Origin: Clostridia bacterium
GTDB taxonomy: Bacteria; Bacillota; Clostridia; Oscillospirales; CAG-382
Direction: 5' to 3'
NCBI GenBank assembly: GCA_017625615.1
Contig: JAGAKP010000022.1
Coordinates: forward strand, 1-51,201
DNA length: 51,201 nucleotides
Notes under the pieces: model-generated
Told to the model about the DNA's origin: nothing
Databases searched by the model: none
Seen by the model: only the letters and a program-made list of their open reading frames with translations
Shown: one piece after another, positions 3,030-48,960 of the stretch
Layout: every line of letters begins with the position of its first letter
Position numbering within the stretch: position 1 is the stretch's first letter
Made by a program: the position numbers and the translations under genes

Positions 3030-5573
3030 ATGAAGAAAATAACCGCATTAATTCTGGCTTTTTTAACCTGTGCCACCCTTTTGTCCTTCGGCGTGCTCGC
3101 CGCAGAGGATATTGAGCAGACGGTTGACGGACTCAACCGAGGCAGAGGCGAGGACGAGGTTATCGTATACAATCCCGCCTTCGGCGCTTCCACCGCCACC
3201 AACGAATGGGGCGCGGAGGCTGTGGTGGACGGCGATAATAAAATAATACGCGTTACCACCGCGGGCAACGAAAAGATCCCCGCAGACGGATTCGTCGTTT
3301 CCGTGCACGGCAAAATGCGTGATTGGCTTTTGTCCAATATGACCGTCGGCAGATATTGCTATTTTGACGAGCGCGGTATGACCATTCTGGTTACCGATGC
3401 TCCCACTCAGTACGGCGGTATATTCTTTACCGTTACCCGTCCCGTGGACAGCTTCAACAACACCCGCTACGAGGATGATCTGGTAATATACACGGGAAGC
3501 GGCACCACCAAAACCAACGAATGGGGCTACGAGGCGGCTGTTGACAAGGACGGACGAATAGTATCCGTCGGCGGAAACGATACCAAGATCCCCACGGGCG
3601 GCTTCGTTATTTCGGGACACGGCAAAAACGGTGAATGGCTTACCAAGACAGCCAGGGTGGGTATGAAGGCAAGCTACGATAAAAACGCCAAGACCCTCAC
3701 CCTTGAAATGGACGAAAAGGCGTACATCCACGGAATAGATATCGGCATACAGCTTCTTGAGGATACCCGCGCCGCCGCCATTAAGGAATACCTTTACTGC
3801 AATTATTCGGATATAGATAATTGCCTGAAGGAAATGCGCGTTCTCCGCGCAAGCTACGAAGCTCTTACCGACGTAAACGAAATGGCAGACTGTATCGAAA
3901 AAATAAACGCCCTTCTCAACAAGGGGCTTTCCTCCTGCTGTGAAAGCCGCACCGTGGAATACCGCGGCGTGTGGATAAGACCTATCCAGAAAACTCAGGC
4001 AGAGGTAAGCGCATACGTACAGCGCCTTTACGATGCGGGTATAAACACCCTTTGTATAGAAACTCTTTACTCTTCCACCCTCATTTTCCCCGCACCCGAG
4101 GGAAGCGATTTTGAGCAGAACCCCGTCTTCAATGGCTTTGACGTCCTTAAGGCGTACGTCGAGGAATGTCACAAGCGGGGAATGGAACTGCACGTTTGGA
4201 TGCCCATATTCTATTCCTCCCATACCACCTGCAATAACCTTGAAAGAAGCGTGTGGTATAAAAACCCCACGTGGCGCAATATAAACGACAGCGGCAAGGA
4301 CACCTGCGTTAAGGACGACGATGATTTCTGCTTCCTGAACCCCGCCCACCCCGAGGTTCAGGAGTTTTTGCTGGGCACCTACCAATACATACTTGAAAAT
4401 TACGACATCGACGGCTTTGAACTGGACTATATCCGTTATCAGGACGGCATCGAGGACGATTACGGCTACGATGCACTTACCGTAGGCGGATTTAAGGAAA
4501 AGTACGGCGTTACCCCCAAGTTTGATACGAGCGCGTCCTATTGGGATAACTGGGTGCAGTACCGCTGTGATATCATCACCGGCTTCGTCGGCAAAATGCG
4601 TACTCTTTTCAACGAATACGGCGAGGACGTTCTCCTGTGTGCCGACGTTGGCCCCGATGCTGCCGGAGCAAGAAACGGCATTTATCAGGATTACAGCAAA
4701 TGGATCGAAAAGGGCTGGATCGACCTGCTCAAGCCTATGTCATATAGCTATGACGCGGTAGAGGCAACGGATAAAAACGTGAGCAAAATGAACGGCAAGT
4801 TTCTTGCCGCGGGTATCGGCGTATTTGCCGATTCCTACAGCGGCTACGATGCATCCACCCACGTTATAGTAGCCAACCAAAAGGGCGCCGACGGCGTTAT
4901 GTTTTTTGAATCCAATACCTATCTGGGCAAGGAGACCGCAAACCACCTGCTCGTATTCGGCGCATTCAGAAACCGCGCCGTTACTCCTACCTTTGATACA
5001 AACGCCGCCCTCACTGCAGTGCTTGATTATTCGCTGGGCAGGGTTAACGAGGTCATCCGTCCCTTCGGCGGTATGGACGCTTCCTCCTGCGAAAGCTACA
5101 AGCAAAAGGTGGAAGTCCTCAAGGGCGATATCGCGGAAACGGAGGACGAAGAGCTTATTTCCATCGCAAAGAGTATTGGGGACAGCCTCGGCACCTCCGC
5201 CGCAGAAAAGGCGTTGAAGGCAGACCTTGAATATTTCACCCGCATTCTCCGCAATACCGAGCGCACCGTGGTGAAAAACGAGGATATTCCCGATACGGGC
5301 ATCGACGAAAGCGACGTAAGCAATTACGAAAGCTCCTTTGAAGAAAGCAGTAAGGCAGAGGAAAGCCGTATCGAGGAAAGCAAAAAGGAAGAGAGCTTAA
5401 AGGAAGAAAGCATCCGCAACGAGCAGAACAGCGATACCGAAAGCAACGTAAGCGTTGATATCGGCGATGAGAAAAAAACTCCCCCCATTATCTGGGTGGG
5501 AATCGTCGTTGCAGGCGCGCTTCTCGTGGCGTCTCTTGCGGTTATTATAAGGTATAAGGGAAAGAGAAGATAA
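3030..5573 (+). CDS. Surface-anchored GH10-like (GHL10/DUF187) glycoside hydrolase
   Basis: An 847-residue exported protein. Residues 1-25 form a signal peptide. Two related beta-domains follow at roughly 45-125 and 145-225, each with a T/K-TNEWG motif, a GFV-(V/I)-S-x-HGK motif and a WL segment. The catalytic domain starts near residue 310 (YRGVWIRPIQKTQAEV) and contains GMELHVWMPIFYSS, FLNPAHPEVQEF and DGFELDYIRYQDG, typical of the GHL10 TIM barrel acting on cell-wall or capsular glycans. The C-terminus is a Ser/Glu-rich stalk (EESKKEESLKEES), then one membrane helix (IIWVGIVVAGALLVASLAVI) and a basic tail. It starts one base after ychF. The two N-terminal domains resemble a domain in the surface protein at 19.5 kb. 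Confidence 0.85.
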   Translation: MKKITALILAFLTCATLLSFGVLAAEDIEQTVDGLNRGRGEDEVIVYNPAFGASTATNEWGAEAVVDGDNKIIRVTTAGNEKIPADGFVVSVHGKMRDWLLSNMTVGRYCYFDERGMTILVTDAPTQYGGIFFTVTRPVDSFNNTRYEDDLVIYTGSGTTKTNEWGYEAAVDKDGRIVSVGGNDTKIPTGGFVISGHGKNGEWLTKTARVGMKASYDKNAKTLTLEMDEKAYIHGIDIGIQLLEDTRAAAIKEYLYCNYSDIDNCLKEMRVLRASYEALTDVNEMADCIEKINALLNKGLSSCCESRTVEYRGVWIRPIQKTQAEVSAYVQRLYDAGINTLCIETLYSSTLIFPAPEGSDFEQNPVFNGFDVLKAYVEECHKRGMELHVWMPIFYSSHTTCNNLERSVWYKNPTWRNINDSGKDTCVKDDDDFCFLNPAHPEVQEFLLGTYQYILENYDIDGFELDYIRYQDGIEDDYGYDALTVGGFKEKYGVTPKFDTSASYWDNWVQYRCDIITGFVGKMRTLFNEYGEDVLLCADVGPDAAGARNGIYQDYSKWIEKGWIDLLKPMSYSYDAVEATDKNVSKMNGKFLAAGIGVFADSYSGYDASTHVIVANQKGADGVMFFESNTYLGKETANHLLVFGAFRNRAVTPTFDTNAALTAVLDYSLGRVNEVIRPFGGMDASSCESYKQKVEVLKGDIAETEDEELISIAKSIGDSLGTSAAEKALKADLEYFTRILRNTERTVVKNEDIPDTGIDESDVSNYESSFEESSKAEESRIEESKKEESLKEESIRNEQNSDTESNVSVDIGDEKKTPPIIWVGIVVAGALLVASLAVIIRYKGKRR

Positions 5574-5716: not shown

Positions 5717-5760
5717 CACAAACCGTAGGGGACGATATCCTTATCGTCCCGCATCAAACA
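5717..5760. repeat. CGTAGGGG palindrome
   Basis: GGGACGATA (5729-5737), loop TCCT, TATCGTCCC (5742-5750), preceded by ACAAACCGTAG. One of about ten copies of this family in the window; the stem here is nine perfect base pairs. Confidence 0.8.
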
Positions 5761-5766
5761 AAAAAC

Positions 5767-5913
5767 CAAAATCCGCGATTTCTCGCGGATTTTTACCGAT
5801 ACGGCGCAACGGAGTTGCGGCATATCACGGAGCCGTGTGCGGCTCCATATCACGCACCGACAGGTGCATATCACGCGCTCACGGAGCGCATATCACTCAC
5901 CCCGCAGGGGTGA
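5767..5913. repeat. Hairpin train 1 (five hairpins, ATATCAC spacers)
   Basis: A leader hairpin AAAATCCGCGA / TCGCGGATTTT (5767-5793) and ACCGATACGG are followed by five different small hairpins: CGCAAC/GTTGCG (5805-5819), GGAGCCG/CGGCTCC (5829-5846), GCACC/GGTGC (5854-5867), GCGCTC/GAGCGC (5875-5889) and TCACCCC/GGGGTGA (5897-5913). Consecutive hairpins are joined by the constant spacer ATATCAC (CATATCAC for the first). Loops are three or four bases. The arms share no sequence between hairpins. No protein-coding signal fits. Confidence 0.85.
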
Positions 5914-5919
5914 TACACA

Positions 5920-6085
5920 GACGGCAGTGCAGTGCGAACAGTTCGCGGAAGAGGCAAGCCTCTTCCCTACAAGACAGACGTTACTTTCGTGCGAACAGCT
6001 CGCGGGCGCATCGTGATGCGCCCCTACGGTTTATGCATAGCCGTGGCGTGTTCGTAGGGGACGGCGTCCTCGACGTCCCGTTTCA
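5920..6085. repeat. Composite palindrome block downstream of train 1
   Basis: Contains direct repeats GCGAACAG(T/C)TCGCGG at 5934 and 5991, a GGAAGAGG/CCTCTTCC hairpin between them, GGGCGCATC/GATGCGCCC (6004-6023) and a CGTAGGGG palindrome (6053-6081). Most of the block recurs at 37734-37842. No gene is visible in 5574-6186. Confidence 0.75.
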
Positions 6086-8582: not shown

Positions 8583-8599
8583 AAGTTAAATCTTTCTAA

Positions 8600-8770
8600 A
8601 ATGAGGAATGGGGAATGAGAAATGAGGAACGCGAAATGAGGAGCGAGGAACGAGTAATGAGGAACGAGGAACGAACGGTAAATTTTTGCAAAGCATTGCA
8701 AAAATTAAATAAATTCAAAATTCGGAGGATTTTCGTCCGTAACGGACGAAAATCTACCATAGTTCCTCGT
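8600..8770. repeat. Heptamer-hairpin island 3 (two hairpins)
   Basis: The best heptamer array in the window: about eleven 7-bp AYGAGRA-type units from 8600 to 8676. It is followed by AATTTTTGCAA-AGCA-TTGCAAAAATT (8681-8706), an AT-rich link, GATTTTCGTCCGT-A-ACGGACGAAAATC (8728-8754), TACCATA and inverted heptamers ending at the RNase Y terminator. Confidence 0.9.
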
Positions 8771-13550: not shown

Positions 13551-13664
13551 ATCATTAAACGAAAAATTACAATTGATTTTTGCAATGCCTTGCAAAAATC
13601 TTCCGAAATTCCTCATTCCTCATTTCTCGTTTCTCGTTTCTCGTTTCTCGTTCCTCATTTCTCC
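13551..13664. repeat. Heptamer-hairpin island 5
   Basis: Class I hairpin GATTTTTGCAA-TGCC-TTGCAAAAATC (13575-13600), CTTCCGAAA, then about nine TTYCTCR heptamers. It lies upstream of the transposase start and downstream of DUF1854. Confidence 0.8.
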
Positions 13665-22439: not shown

Positions 22440-22597
22440 CGGACAATGCAATAGAAATGAGAAACGAGAAATGAGGAATGAGAAATTATGGTTGATTTTG
22501 TCCTTGCGGACAAAAATCTTCCGAATTTTTAATTTAATTAATTTTTGCAATACTTTTGCAAAAATTTACCTTTCGTTCATCGTTTCTCGTTCATCGT
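22440..22597. repeat. Heptamer-hairpin island 9 (two hairpins)
   Basis: AATGAGA/ACGAGAA heptamers, ATTATGGTT, hairpin GATTTTGTCC-TTGC-GGACAAAAATC (22494-22518), CTTCCGAA, AT-rich link, hairpin ATTTTTGCAA / TTGCAAAAAT (22541-22565), TTACC and TTCATCG heptamers. Same two-hairpin plan as islands 3 and 17. Confidence 0.85.
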
Positions 22598-31498: not shown

Positions 31499-32140
31499 GT
31501 GACCGCCCTTTATATAATTCTCGGTATCATCGCGCTTTTTTGTCTGTTTCTCTTCCTGCGCGCAAAGGTGTTCGTTACGTGGTGTAACGAGCTGTTCGTG
31601 CGGGTGGGCTTGGGACCCGTACCCTATGAATTTGCCCTGAACGATTTTATAAAAAAGGACGAAAAAGAAGAAAAAGCCGAGGTAAAGGAAAAAAAGACTA
31701 AAAAGCCGAAGAAAGAAAAAAAGAAAAAGGAAAGCAAGGGGAAGGAAAAGAAAAAGGTTCCCTTAAAGGAACAGCTTGAATTTTTCAAAAATATACTTGC
31801 CGCGGTGTACAAGCACTTCGGTAAAAGGGTGCGTGTTGAAAAATACGTGCTCAAGGTATCCGTCGGCACTCCCGACGCGGCACAGACAGCCATTCTGTAC
31901 GGCGGTATAAGCGGTGTTATGGCAAACATAAACGAGCTTATACTTAATTACCGCCACAAAAAGGGCGCCCGTATATATTCGGAATGTAAGCCCGATTTTC
32001 TGAGCGAGAGTATGGATATATACGTGGATATCGGCGCATCCGTAACGCTGTGGAATATAGTTATTACGGGAATAGCGGCGGCGTGGATATGGCTGAAATA
32101 TAAGATAAAAACAAAGAAAACGATAAACGAGAAACGATAA
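31499..32140 (+). CDS. DUF2953-like membrane protein (YtfI-type)
   Basis: 213 residues from a GTG at 31499 with GGAGG upstream. One N-terminal helix (LYIILGIIALFCLFLFLRAKVF) is followed by a very Lys/Glu-rich stretch (about 60-85, KKPKKEKKKKESKGKEKKK), then a domain with VLKVSVGTPDAAQTAILYGGISGVMANI and a C-terminal hydrophobic TLWNIVITGIAAAWIWLKY. The order scpB, this gene, ytfJ is the usual sporulation-linked arrangement in Clostridia and Bacilli. The last residues INEKR come from heptamer sequence at the start of an island. Confidence 0.8.
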   Translation: MTALYIILGIIALFCLFLFLRAKVFVTWCNELFVRVGLGPVPYEFALNDFIKKDEKEEKAEVKEKKTKKPKKEKKKKESKGKEKKKVPLKEQLEFFKNILAAVYKHFGKRVRVEKYVLKVSVGTPDAAQTAILYGGISGVMANINELILNYRHKKGARIYSECKPDFLSESMDIYVDIGASVTLWNIVITGIAAAWIWLKYKIKTKKTINEKR

Positions 32141-32215
32141 ACGAGAAACGAATGGAAACCTTTTTTCGCGAAAACCGCGAAAAAAGCTACCGAAGTTCAT
32201 AGTTCCTCGTTCTCA
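32118..32215. repeat. Heptamer-hairpin island 12
   Basis: ACGATAA/ACGAGAA heptamers begin inside the DUF2953 gene end. Then ATGGAAA, class I hairpin CTTTTTTCGCG-AAAAC-CGCGAAAAAAG (32160-32186), CTACCGAA, and TTCATAG/TTCCTCG heptamers. It ends about ten bases before the ytfJ ribosome site AAGGAG. Confidence 0.85.
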
Positions 32216-33698: not shown

Positions 33699-34222
33699 GC
33701 AGGGTTCATCACGTAGAGGGAGTTATTTCAGCCGCGGAAATGATACGCAGGGAGGTTTTCCCCCATCTGGACAAGGACGAGGTGTACCGCGCCGCGCTGT
33801 ATCACGATCACACCAAGGAAATGGACCAGCTTTTGCTGATGGAAAAATACGGAATTTCCGACGAGGAGCTGAAAAGATCTCCCGCAGTAATACACGCGTT
33901 CACCGCCGCTGAATTTTTAAAGGAAAAGGGCGAGGATGAAGGGGTAATAAACGCGGTGAGGTACCACACCACGGGCAGACCCGATATGACGGAAATTGAG
34001 AAAATTATATTCGTTGCCGATTATATCGAGGAAAACCGTGAGTATGAGACCTGCAAAAAGGCGAGAAATACCTATTTGCAAGAGGAAAAAACAGTTAAAA
34101 ATTTAGATAAATTGATTTATACCATATTGAAAAATACGGTAGACCATTTAAAAGAAAAGAAATCATACGTTCATCCGCTGACTACGGAAACGATGAAATG
34201 GTATGAAAACGATAAACGATAA
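33695..34222 (+). CDS. yqeK: YqeK-type HD hydrolase (Ap4A hydrolase)
   Basis: 175 residues. HD-superfamily protein related to YqeK, which splits diadenosine tetraphosphate symmetrically. The N-terminal His is in SRVHHVEGVISAA. The HD motif region reads YRAALYHDHTKEM. AVRYHTTGRPDMTEIEKIIFVADYIEENR is the typical YqeK signature. nadD, normally between yhbY and yqeK in Firmicutes, is absent here. The C-terminal residues NDKR and the stop are heptamer sequence. Confidence 0.88.
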   Translation: MSRVHHVEGVISAAEMIRREVFPHLDKDEVYRAALYHDHTKEMDQLLLMEKYGISDEELKRSPAVIHAFTAAEFLKEKGEDEGVINAVRYHTTGRPDMTEIEKIIFVADYIEENREYETCKKARNTYLQEEKTVKNLDKLIYTILKNTVDHLKEKKSYVHPLTTETMKWYENDKR

Positions 34223-34318
34223 ACGATAAACGATGAACGATAAACTTCGGAAGATTTTTGTTCGCACACGAACAAAAATCAACCATAATTTCTCATTCCT
34301 CGTTCCTCATTTCTCGTT
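34200..34318. repeat. Heptamer-hairpin island 13
   Basis: ACGATAA heptamers starting in the yqeK end, ACTTCGGAA, class I hairpin GATTTTTGTTCG-CACA-CGAACAAAAATC (34253-34280, identical to island 4), AACCATAA, and TTTCTCA/TTCCTCG heptamers. It stops six bases before AAGGAG of rsfS. Confidence 0.85.
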
Positions 34319-37615: not shown

Positions 37616-37731
37616 AAAATCCGCTATGCGGATTTTTACCGAAACGGCGCAACAGCGTTGCGACATGTAACGCACCGACAGGTGCATGTAACGCGCTCGG
37701 AGAGCGCATGTAACTCACCCCGCAGGGGTGA
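37616..37731. repeat. Hairpin train 2 (four hairpins, ATGTAAC spacers)
   Basis: Leader AAATCCGC/GCGGATTT then ACCGAAACGG, then CGCAAC/GTTGCG (37648-37662), GCACC/GGTGC (37672-37685), GCGCTC/GAGCGC (37693-37707) and TCACCCC/GGGGTGA (37715-37731), joined by ATGTAAC. Same hairpins in the same order as train 1, except that GGAGCCG is missing and the spacer differs. Confidence 0.85.
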
Positions 37732-37733
37732 TT

Positions 37734-37842
37734 GAAGACGGCAGTGTAGTGCGAACAGTTTGCGGGCGCATCGTGATGCGCCCCTACGGTTTATGCGTAG
37801 CCGTGGCGCGTTCGTAGGGGCGATTCACGAATCGCCCGCATA
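37734..37842. repeat. Composite palindrome block (copy of 5920-6085)
   Basis: AGACGGCAGTG, GCGAACAGTTTGCGG, GGGCGCATC/GATGCGCCC (37764-37783), TACGGTTTATGCGTAGCC, and a CGTAGGGG palindrome with a GGGCGATTC/GAATCGCCC stem (37814-37840). It lacks the 57-bp block present in the first copy. Confidence 0.75.
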
Positions 37843-39265: not shown

Positions 39266-39440
39266 GAAACGATGAACGGGAAACAATTAACGCGGAACGA
39301 TGAACGCGGAATGATGAACGAAAGGTAAATTTTTGCAAAGTGTTGCAAAAATTAATTAAATTAGAAATTCGGAAGATTTTTGTCCCGTGGGACAAAAATC
39401 AACCATAGTTTCTCGTTTCTCGTTTCTCGTTCATCATTAA
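39266..39440. repeat. Heptamer-hairpin island 17 (two hairpins)
   Basis: ACGATGA/ACGCGGA heptamers, GGTA, hairpin AATTTTTGCAA-AGTG-TTGCAAAAATT (39328-39353), AT-rich link, TTCGGAA, hairpin GATTTTTGTCC-CGTG-GGACAAAAATC (39375-39400), AACCATA, TTTCTCG heptamers, ending ten bases before AGGAG of malQ. Confidence 0.88.
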
Positions 39441-46498: not shown

Positions 46499-47746
46499 AT
46501 GCCTTTAGCCGACAAAATCCGTCCCTCTTCCCTCGCCGAAATGGCAGGGCAGGAGCATTTACTTAAAGAAAGCGCGCCCTTGCGCAGAATACTTGAAAGC
46601 GGGCATCTGCCGTCCATGATATTTTACGGCCCGCCCGGCACGGGAAAGACCACCCTTGCCAACATCGCCGCGCGGCTTACCGACAAGCAGATATTCCGCG
46701 TTAACGCCACAACAGCCTCCCTTTCCGACGTGAAGGAGATACTGTCCGAAACCGACAGCCTCTTTTCCGCAGGGGGGATACTGCTGTATATAGACGAAAT
46801 ACAGTACTTTAACAAAAAGCAGCAGCAGGCGTTGCTTGAATACGTGGAGGACGGCAGAGTAACGCTTATCTGCTCCACCACCGAAAACCCATATTTCGCC
46901 CTTTACGGCGCACTCCTCTCCCGAAGCACGGTGTTCGAGTTCAAGCCCGTCAAGCCCGAAGAATGTGTCAAGGTGTTAAGACGGGGACTTGAATTACTCA
47001 ACTCCGAAAGCGGAAGCAACAAAAACTGCGATGACAGCGTGCTTTTATCCGTTGCAGTCGGTTGCGGAGGGGACGTGAGAAAGGCACTTACCGCCCTTGA
47101 AAATCTGTATTACGCCTGTGTGGGCGACCTTGACGGCGACACGGCTGCAGCCCTTACCCAAAGAAGCGGTATGCGCTTTGACGTAAGCGGCGACCAGCAT
47201 TACGATATACTTTCGGCTTTCCAAAAGTCTATTCGCGGCAGTGACGAAAACGCCGCTGTTCATTACCTCGCACGGCTTCTTGCAGGCGGGGATCTCCTTT
47301 CGCCCTGCAGACGGCTGCTTGTAATCGCTTCCGAGGATATAGGGCTGGCGTACCCGCAGGCGGTAAGCATGGTAAAATCCTGCGTGGATTCGGCGCTTCA
47401 TCTCGGTCTTCCCGAAGGGGGGCTTCCCCTTGCGCAAGCCACCATTTTGCTTGCCACCGCGCCAAAGAGCAACTCCGCGGCGGCTGCCTATTGGGCGGCG
47501 ATGGAGGACGTGGAAACGGGAAAAGCGGTTTCCGTCCCCTCCCATTTGCAGGATACACATTATTCCGGTGCTTCTTCCCTTGGCAGAGGCGGATATAAAT
47601 ATCCCCACGCATACCCCAACAGCTACGTTGAACAGCAGTATATGCCCGACGAGCTTAAGGACAAGGTGTATTACGTCCACGGAAGCAATAAGAATGAGTC
47701 TGCAGTGAAAGAATATTGGAACAAGATAAAGAACGAGAAACGATGA
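46499..47746 (+). CDS. rarA: RarA/MgsA-like AAA+ recombination factor
   Basis: 415 residues. AAA+ clamp-loader-like ATPase acting at stalled forks. N-terminal ADKIRPSSLAEMAGQEHLL, Walker A YGPPGTGKTTLANI, Walker B ILLYIDEIQYFNKKQQQALLEYVEDG, sensor ICSTTENPYF, and the C-terminal MgsA domain with YLARLLAGGDLLSPCRRLLVIASEDIGLAYPQA and VPSHLQDTHYSGA. The start at 46499 has only a weak AGGTG; an upstream frame lies in the island. The last residues NEKR and the stop are heptamer sequence. Confidence 0.93.
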   Translation: MPLADKIRPSSLAEMAGQEHLLKESAPLRRILESGHLPSMIFYGPPGTGKTTLANIAARLTDKQIFRVNATTASLSDVKEILSETDSLFSAGGILLYIDEIQYFNKKQQQALLEYVEDGRVTLICSTTENPYFALYGALLSRSTVFEFKPVKPEECVKVLRRGLELLNSESGSNKNCDDSVLLSVAVGCGGDVRKALTALENLYYACVGDLDGDTAAALTQRSGMRFDVSGDQHYDILSAFQKSIRGSDENAAVHYLARLLAGGDLLSPCRRLLVIASEDIGLAYPQAVSMVKSCVDSALHLGLPEGGLPLAQATILLATAPKSNSAAAAYWAAMEDVETGKAVSVPSHLQDTHYSGASSLGRGGYKYPHAYPNSYVEQQYMPDELKDKVYYVHGSNKNESAVKEYWNKIKNEKR

Positions 47747-47841
47747 ACGAGAAACGATGAACGAATGGTTGATTTTTGTCCTCGCGGACAAAAATCTTCC
47801 GAACCTTTTCACTATTCACTATTCACTCTTCACTTTTCCAT
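47733..47841. repeat. Heptamer-hairpin island 22
   Basis: ACGAGAA/ACGATGA heptamers supply the rarA stop. ATGGTT, class I hairpin GATTTTTGTCC-TCGC-GGACAAAAATC (47771-47796), CTTCCGAACC, TTMACTY-type heptamers (TTCACTA, TTCACTC) up to the shared terminator. Confidence 0.85.
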
Positions 47842-48747: not shown

Positions 48748-48960
48748 TCACCCCTGCGGGGTGAGTTACATGCGCTTTTGCAAGCGCGTTACATGCGCCC
48801 CGAAACGGAGCGCGTTACATGTCGCGAAGAACTCGCGACGTAATGGAAAAAATCCGCGTGCGGATTTTTACCGAAACGTTGCGCTGATGCGCAACATGTC
48901 ACGCACCGATAGGTGCATGTAGCGCACCGACAGGTGCATGTCACGCACTCGAAGAGTGCC
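48748..48960. repeat. Hairpin train 3 (eight hairpins, both orientations)
   Basis: First half with spacer GTTACAT: TCACCCC/GGGGTGA (48748-48764), GCGCTT/AAGCGC (48772-48787), GCGC-CCG/CGG-GCGC (48795-48813), GTCGCGA/TCGCGAC (48821-48839). A leader AAAATCCGC/GCGGATTTT follows (48848-48868). Second half with spacer ATGTCAC/ATGTAGC: GTTGCGC/GCGCAAC (48878-48895), GCACC/GGTGC twice (48903-48916, 48924-48937), GCACTC/GAGTGC (48945-48959). It ends 20 bases before the xseA ribosome site, so it is probably transcribed as part of a leader. Confidence 0.85.

Follow-up and report, generated by a model that had tools for sequence, protein, structure and literature searches.

A train of five small hairpins at positions 5805–5913 of the window (the whole stretch of clostridial DNA analysed here, 51,201 nucleotides) belongs to a family of relatives of Gut-1 (Rfam RF01706). 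We propose, with confidence evenly balanced, that the train is one half of an element of a Gut-1-related family: a mobile, hairpin-rich DNA repeat that targets terminator stem-loops and acts as DNA hairpins. The family itself is already known and unexplained; the anatomy described below is substantially unlike that of published Gut-1.

Anatomy of the train

Five perfect hairpins, their arms mutually unrelated in sequence, are joined by four identical ATATCAC spacers, as the initial annotation had described. On the plus strand, downstream of ACCGATACG, hairpin 1 (CGCAAC-GGA-GTTGCG, with a GNA triloop; 5805–5819) is preceded by G and followed by GC and the first spacer (5822–5828). Hairpin 2 (GGAGCCG-TGTG-CGGCTCC; 5829–5846), a spacer (5847–5853), hairpin 3 (GCACC-GACA-GGTGC, with a GNNA tetraloop; 5854–5867), a spacer (5868–5874), hairpin 4 (GCGCTC-ACG-GAGCGC; 5875–5889), the last spacer (5890–5896) and hairpin 5 (TCACCCC-GCA-GGGGTGA, again with a GNA triloop; 5897–5913) complete the train, which ends at 5913. 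Spacers and hairpins 2–4 were called by a unit scan, hairpin 2 also by comparison of copies, and hairpins 1 and 5 from sequence and fold. The annotation had extended the train over 5767–5913; of this interval, however, 5768–5793 is a terminator-like hairpin, recognized from sequence, which with its T-tract (AAAATCCGCG-ATTTCT-CGCGGATTTTT; 5768–5794, plus strand) lies directly 5' of the train. A constant leader (ACCGATACGG; 5795–5804, plus strand), which reads ACCGWAACG in genus relatives, leads from the terminator to hairpin 1.

The unit scan, with stems of at least 4 bp and the spacer ATRTMAC, found seven spacer-hairpin-spacer units in the window, distributed over three sites near 5.8, 37.7 and 48.8 kb, and none in 100 first-order shuffles of the window. 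As the annotation had recognized, the train is neither a tandem repeat, which its anatomy rules out, nor a CRISPR array, given a constant part of 7 bp in place of repeats of ~21–40 bp and a self-complementary variable part.

The surroundings of the train are themselves rich in repeats. GTAG-tagged palindromes (for example GTAGGGGACGATATCCTTATCGTCCC) lie at 5725–5750, 5947–5970, about 6004–6027, 6054–6079 and further sites; they often stand in REPIN-like inverted pairs, and the genome has no Y1/RAYT gene. A degenerate 7-bp repeat (AATGAGG, AAACGAG and variants) forms many intergenic runs that border the composites, at 8599–8674, 13608–13663, 22453–22486, 32118–32151, 34207–34245, 39266–39320, 47731–47764 and elsewhere in the window, and such runs recur in genus relatives.

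Copies in the genome and in near relatives

Five ATATCAC copies, 91–100% identical over their matched lengths, are spread over several contigs of the same genome, and the whole cassette with the same hairpin order is found on contigs C9, C30, C42 and C73 at 91–95% identity. In addition, a subfamily in which every spacer has changed together to ATGTAAC occurs on C70, on C73 (position 42) and in the window from 37616; exactly the second hairpin-spacer unit is missing from it. Its window member (37616–37765, plus strand), delimited by copy comparison and unit scan, retains the same terminator-like hairpin and hairpins 1, 3, 4 and 5. The third site in the window is a head-to-head double train. Its left half carries ATGTAAC spacers on the minus strand (48757–48838, unit scan), its centre is the palindrome AAAATCCGC-GT-GCGGATTTTT (48849–48870), and its right half (48871–48959, plus strand) has CATGTCAC spacers and a near-duplicate hairpin unit (GCACCGATAGGTGC / GCACCGACAGGTGC).

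Across copies, homologous hairpins sit at corresponding positions and diverge through compensatory changes, while the architecture and the spacer remain constant. The earlier description of the hairpins as unrelated is thus correct for the arms within a train and incorrect for corresponding hairpins of different copies. The copy at C73:15389 (L011) is homologous only from the T-tract onward (window 5790), and the terminator hairpin in front of its train is another, unrelated one (AAAAAGCACCC..GGGTGCTTTTTTT); trains of the window family therefore follow more than one terminator, two different ones in all. The train is absent from the orthologous intergenic region, between a glycosyl-hydrolase-like gene and an M29 peptidase gene, in genomes G001, G002 and G003.

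Kinship to Gut-1

Gut-1 was described as an orphan candidate noncoding RNA of gut metagenomes, found in the human gut only and, in 2010, in environmental sequences only; it was rated as RNA with certainty and as not cis-regulatory (Weinberg et al. 2010, PMC2864571). The window copy matches the full RF01706 model (1–77) on the minus strand at 5842–5920 with 43.4 bits (E 3.3e-7) against a cut-off of 50 and is thus Gut-1-like, not a formal member; along the full model it has the three hairpins on GUGAAAU-type linkers that characterize Gut-1. The best copy in its own genome scores 46.2 bits, also below the cut-off, which is reached by 8 of 13 test loci; same-genus L045 scores 51.1 bits and other relatives up to 91 bits. 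Of 394 genomes of the order, 159 gave a match at E <= 1e-4 and 127 one above the cut-off; 14 control genomes gave none. The initial annotation had suggested an RNA with many short stems, which agrees with the Rfam description of these Gut-1 relatives.

Shared features are three or more small hairpins, a 7-nt linker GUGAAAU/GUGAUAU (ATTTCAC/ATATCAC on the other strand), occurrence in gut bacteria and orphan function. Gut-1 is modelled as a 77-nt single-strand noncoding RNA, whereas the unit found here is larger, a dispersed, terminator-tied, head-to-head double train whose loop polarity lies on the strand opposite to the model. A literature search for the spacer and for such repeats or mobile elements returned no description other than Gut-1. 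Covarying arms with near-constant right-half spacers, the loop polarity and the head-to-head units at terminators seem to be new. Gut-1 matches were also seen in tandem at ~95–260 bp spacing (G360:C15 140–701, G220:C19 9226–9659, G139:C8 26146–26452), indicating that units multiply locally as well.

Distribution across genomes

Searched for as three ATATCAC spacers 8–30 bases apart, trains turned up in 85 of the 394 genomes examined from the same order, so the pattern that the annotation had proposed to seek in Clostridia genomes is indeed there. The reversed pattern occurred in none of the 394, a result that together with the shuffled windows rules out a chance origin of the train. Five matches in a phylum sample lay outside the order; all were tandem or chance repeats and none was a hairpin train, and wider taxonomic spread was rejected accordingly. 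Between genomes the arms differ and the spacer is constant. The inter-spacer segments of the fetched loci are predominantly self-complementary, with an outer stem of at least 4 bp in 277 of 468 versus 2.3 expected after shuffling.

Between species, DNA identity ends at the unit ends, and almost every pair has unrelated genes next to the unit. Mixed clusters had a minus train followed by a plus train in 38 of 38 cases. Flanking genes were convergent at 18 clusters, tandem at 25 and divergent at 5. A crude gene call placed 31 more clusters over ORFs, the majority of which are short and probably spurious. At least 120 stretches of viral contigs also matched. Among the matches listed, only 10 of 289 inter-spacer segments were hairpins, mainly in L231, L249 and L311; the listed viral matches are therefore mostly chance or coding repeats, and on these a phage origin was rejected. 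L231, L249 and L311, on contigs classed as viral, are true hairpin trains that may be proviral flanks or carried copies.

Double trains

Alignment delimited 11 complete units of 328–398 bp, all head-to-head double trains dispersed over unrelated loci. A unit consists of a left-end hairpin, a left half-train (GTGATAT on the top strand), a central stem (TCTATTCGCC...GGCGAATAGA), a right half-train (ATATCAC), a terminator-like hairpin and a right end. Unit ends read TGGCGTGATACTC... and ...GACATCACNCA, and the right end (CTCCGATAAGGACATCACNCA) is an imperfect inverted repeat of the left (TGGCGTGATACTC..TTATCGGAG). The longest ORF is shorter than 50 aa in 10 units and 107 aa in one. By comparison, the 5.8-kb site of the window is one half of a double train only. 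The initial annotation, partly supported overall, had missed both the pairing of trains head to head and the dispersed, putatively mobile unit.

Complete relatives resemble MITEs: they are short and dispersed, lack a transposase gene and have terminal inverted repeats, though imperfect ones. They are unlike MITEs in having an array of covarying hairpins as interior and a terminator stem-loop as apparent target. BOX elements of Streptococcus pneumoniae are intergenic repeats of modular build in which the number of structured internal units varies. The train is similarly modular but differs from BOX in that each hairpin has its own arms and only the linker repeats.

Several units depart from the standard form. 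A right-hand tail module (GGGTATGGGC...ACAAATGCGAAACT) has opposite orientations in L093, L160 and L193 and in L124, L198 and L199, showing that units are mosaics. L196 has long trains on the minus strand (3062–4130 and 3849–4899) with at least seven hairpins, several of which share arms (TGCCGCATAGCGGCA, GCGGCTTTGCCGC), unlike the trains in which all hairpins differ.

Association with intrinsic terminators

Judged by their flanks, relatives of the train are associated with intrinsic terminators. At exact unit ends, in units of two families, the flanks of 10 of the 11 complete units form the two arms of one terminator (at least nine perfect complementary bases, at least three of them G or C), compared with 2 of 110 swapped flanks; the eleventh unit, L199, has imperfect terminator arms. 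This test supersedes an earlier, noisy one with wide windows, in which the true partner was best in 7 of 24. Classical Gut-1 units start right after differing terminator T-tracts in L367, L368, L370 and L371, several of them behind tRNA genes. The search for an empty site with both terminator arms found none; in G409 an intact terminator adjoins the orthologous right-hand gene, and the contig ends there. Because the window copy lies between two intact gene terminators within a REP-rich composite, insertion into a terminator loop is not claimed for it.

In L084, L089, L168 and L186, a complete new hairpin sits within the loop of an existing train hairpin (in L186, for example, GCTCAC-GCA-GTGAGC inside TCGCG..CGCG). 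Collectively, the flank arms, the starts behind T-tracts and the hairpins within loops point to a putative mobility process drawn to stem-loops. The aligned unit flanks had no clear target-site duplication, and no transposition event, autonomous partner or mobilizing gene was found in searches that covered Y1 transposases. Y1 transposase (PF01797) is absent from the train's own genome (G000) and from G001–G003, and over 394 genomes Y1 transposases and trains were not associated (34 shared versus 32.8 expected; Fisher p 0.80).

Selection on the fold and polarity of the loops

Selection preserves fold and spacer but lets the arm sequences change. RNAalifold on 20 cores gave 37 pairs, 16 of them with both sides changed and pairing kept, and the arms of hairpin B2 paired in 96% of cases versus 54% after arms were re-dealt among elements. 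All 20 cores have identical R1 and identical R2 spacers; left-half spacers drift without compensation.

The loops are strikingly polar. Counting each distinct hairpin with a loop of 3 or 4 once, 98 of 184 have a G..A loop on the ATATCAC strand and none on the complement, the strand modelled by Rfam. The strand annotated for Gut-1 has neither G..A nor UNCG loops, and no T..C loop occurred with any spacer variant checked, including the classical ATTTCAC/GTGAAAT type. This polarity is strong evidence that the ATATCAC strand, opposite to the annotated one, is the likely functional strand. Weinberg et al. applied the same kind of loop argument, in the opposite direction, to the STAXI motif.

The closing pair is C-G in 176 of 209 catalogued hairpins. 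A GNA or GNNA loop on a closing G-C pair makes an extraordinarily stable DNA minihairpin (PMC4686876), and the promoter hairpins of the bacteriophage N4 vRNAP, short DNA hairpins, need the same closing pair and the loop G and A for extrusion under supercoiling (PMC4496689). The N4 likeness is a functional analogy only, with no shared sequence. The small train loops fit C(GNA)G/C(GNNA)G DNA minihairpins. Of 46 G..A tetraloops, 21 have the form GNYA, not favoured by the GNRA rule for RNA, but 25 are GNRA and compatible with RNA as well. Calculated strand differences were small in RNA and DNA models alike. Overall, the loop features are moderate evidence for DNA over RNA.

Discussion

In its full form, the proposed element would be a non-coding repeat of ~330–400 bp, bounded by imperfect terminal inverted repeats, in which a central stem separates two head-to-head trains; it would also carry a terminator-like hairpin of its own. 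Within each half, the strand with ATATCAC or its variants is predicted to fold into C-G-closed minihairpins with G..A loops, set on 7-nt spacers. Comparison of relatives, and for the window family the C73 copy, shows units spread among unrelated loci and placed at intrinsic terminators, in the loop or directly after a T-tract. Since they carry their own terminator-like hairpins, they probably do little harm at such sites, which may be why these sites are used. The hairpins would most likely act as single-stranded or extruded DNA, read together with the spacer by a putative mobility protein that may also pick the stem-loop targets. A bolder and more tentative proposal is that Gut-1 is not an RNA gene at all. 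It may be a terminator-seeking family of mobile DNA in which a constant linker joins extraordinarily stable minihairpins of single-stranded DNA, and would be moved by a putative enzyme that recognizes hairpins in element and target, with new hairpins also entering the loops of old ones.

A role as RNA is the rival that we take most seriously, although we consider it doubtful. The family might be the Gut-1 noncoding RNA as annotated, or a 3' UTR hairpin array, made from the ATATCAC strand, with a role in protecting mRNA ends or in protein binding at the spacers. Covariation with conserved linkers is typical of RNA, the published rating of Gut-1 is unequivocal, copies lie downstream of genes with few divergent neighbours, and G..A loops, including the GNRA tetraloops counted above, stabilize RNA too. 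Against RNA stand the annotated strand devoid of favoured loops and the dispersal of copies at unrelated genes; moreover, because the two halves lie on opposite strands, a single transcript would present favoured loops in just half of its hairpins. A very improbable account, serial capture at the spacer, raised in the initial annotation, has the train grow by one new hairpin at a time. It draws on the unit missing from the ATGTAAC subfamily and the one duplicated in the 48.9-kb train, which show the gain and loss of single hairpins that the annotation had proposed to test, and on the hairpins nested in older loops. Those additions, however, arise in loops and not at the spacer, whole units sit in or after terminator stem-loops, and homologous positions with compensatory evolution across genera indicate that most hairpins are old.

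The GTAG-tagged palindromes that flank the window train (5725, 5965, 6022, 6054) and the intergenic, short-palindrome habit typical of REPs (PMC3733652) would suit an ordinary REP/BIME-type element moved by a RAYT (Y1) transposase. This is very improbable: train hairpins have no GTAG or CGTC tag at the foot and start at ATATCAC, with tags on the neighbouring palindromes only; the flanking REPs are present without the train in G001; and the Y1 survey above gives no RAYT link. A 2013 survey found GTAG repeats only in Proteobacteria, Cyanobacteria, Chloroflexi and the PVC group (PMC3733652). Least probable of all is that the halves pair spacer to spacer (GTGATAT with ATATCAC) in a ladder of four-way junctions, with this fold as the function. 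Spacer families do shift together in both halves (GTGATAT/ATATCAC versus GTGAAAT/ATTTCAC), and such rungs appear in several predicted folds. Within the GTGATAT family, however, spacers of the left half have diverged to GTTCTAT, GTTATAT and GTTTTAT with hardly any compensation in those of the right half, which are still ATATCAC; conserved pairing is unsupported in the main family, and the 5.8-kb window site has no second half to pair with.

These results give the orphan Gut-1 a host range, one order of Clostridia, and a larger true unit. The strand likely to be functional is the opposite of that annotated, and the life style that emerges is mobile and linked to terminators. They also carry the warning that covariation by itself is no proof of RNA. 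If the reading as DNA is true, the family would represent a mobile element of bacteria selected for minihairpins of single-stranded DNA and for stem-loop targets, and would offer a tractable system for hairpin-DNA recognition in transposition.
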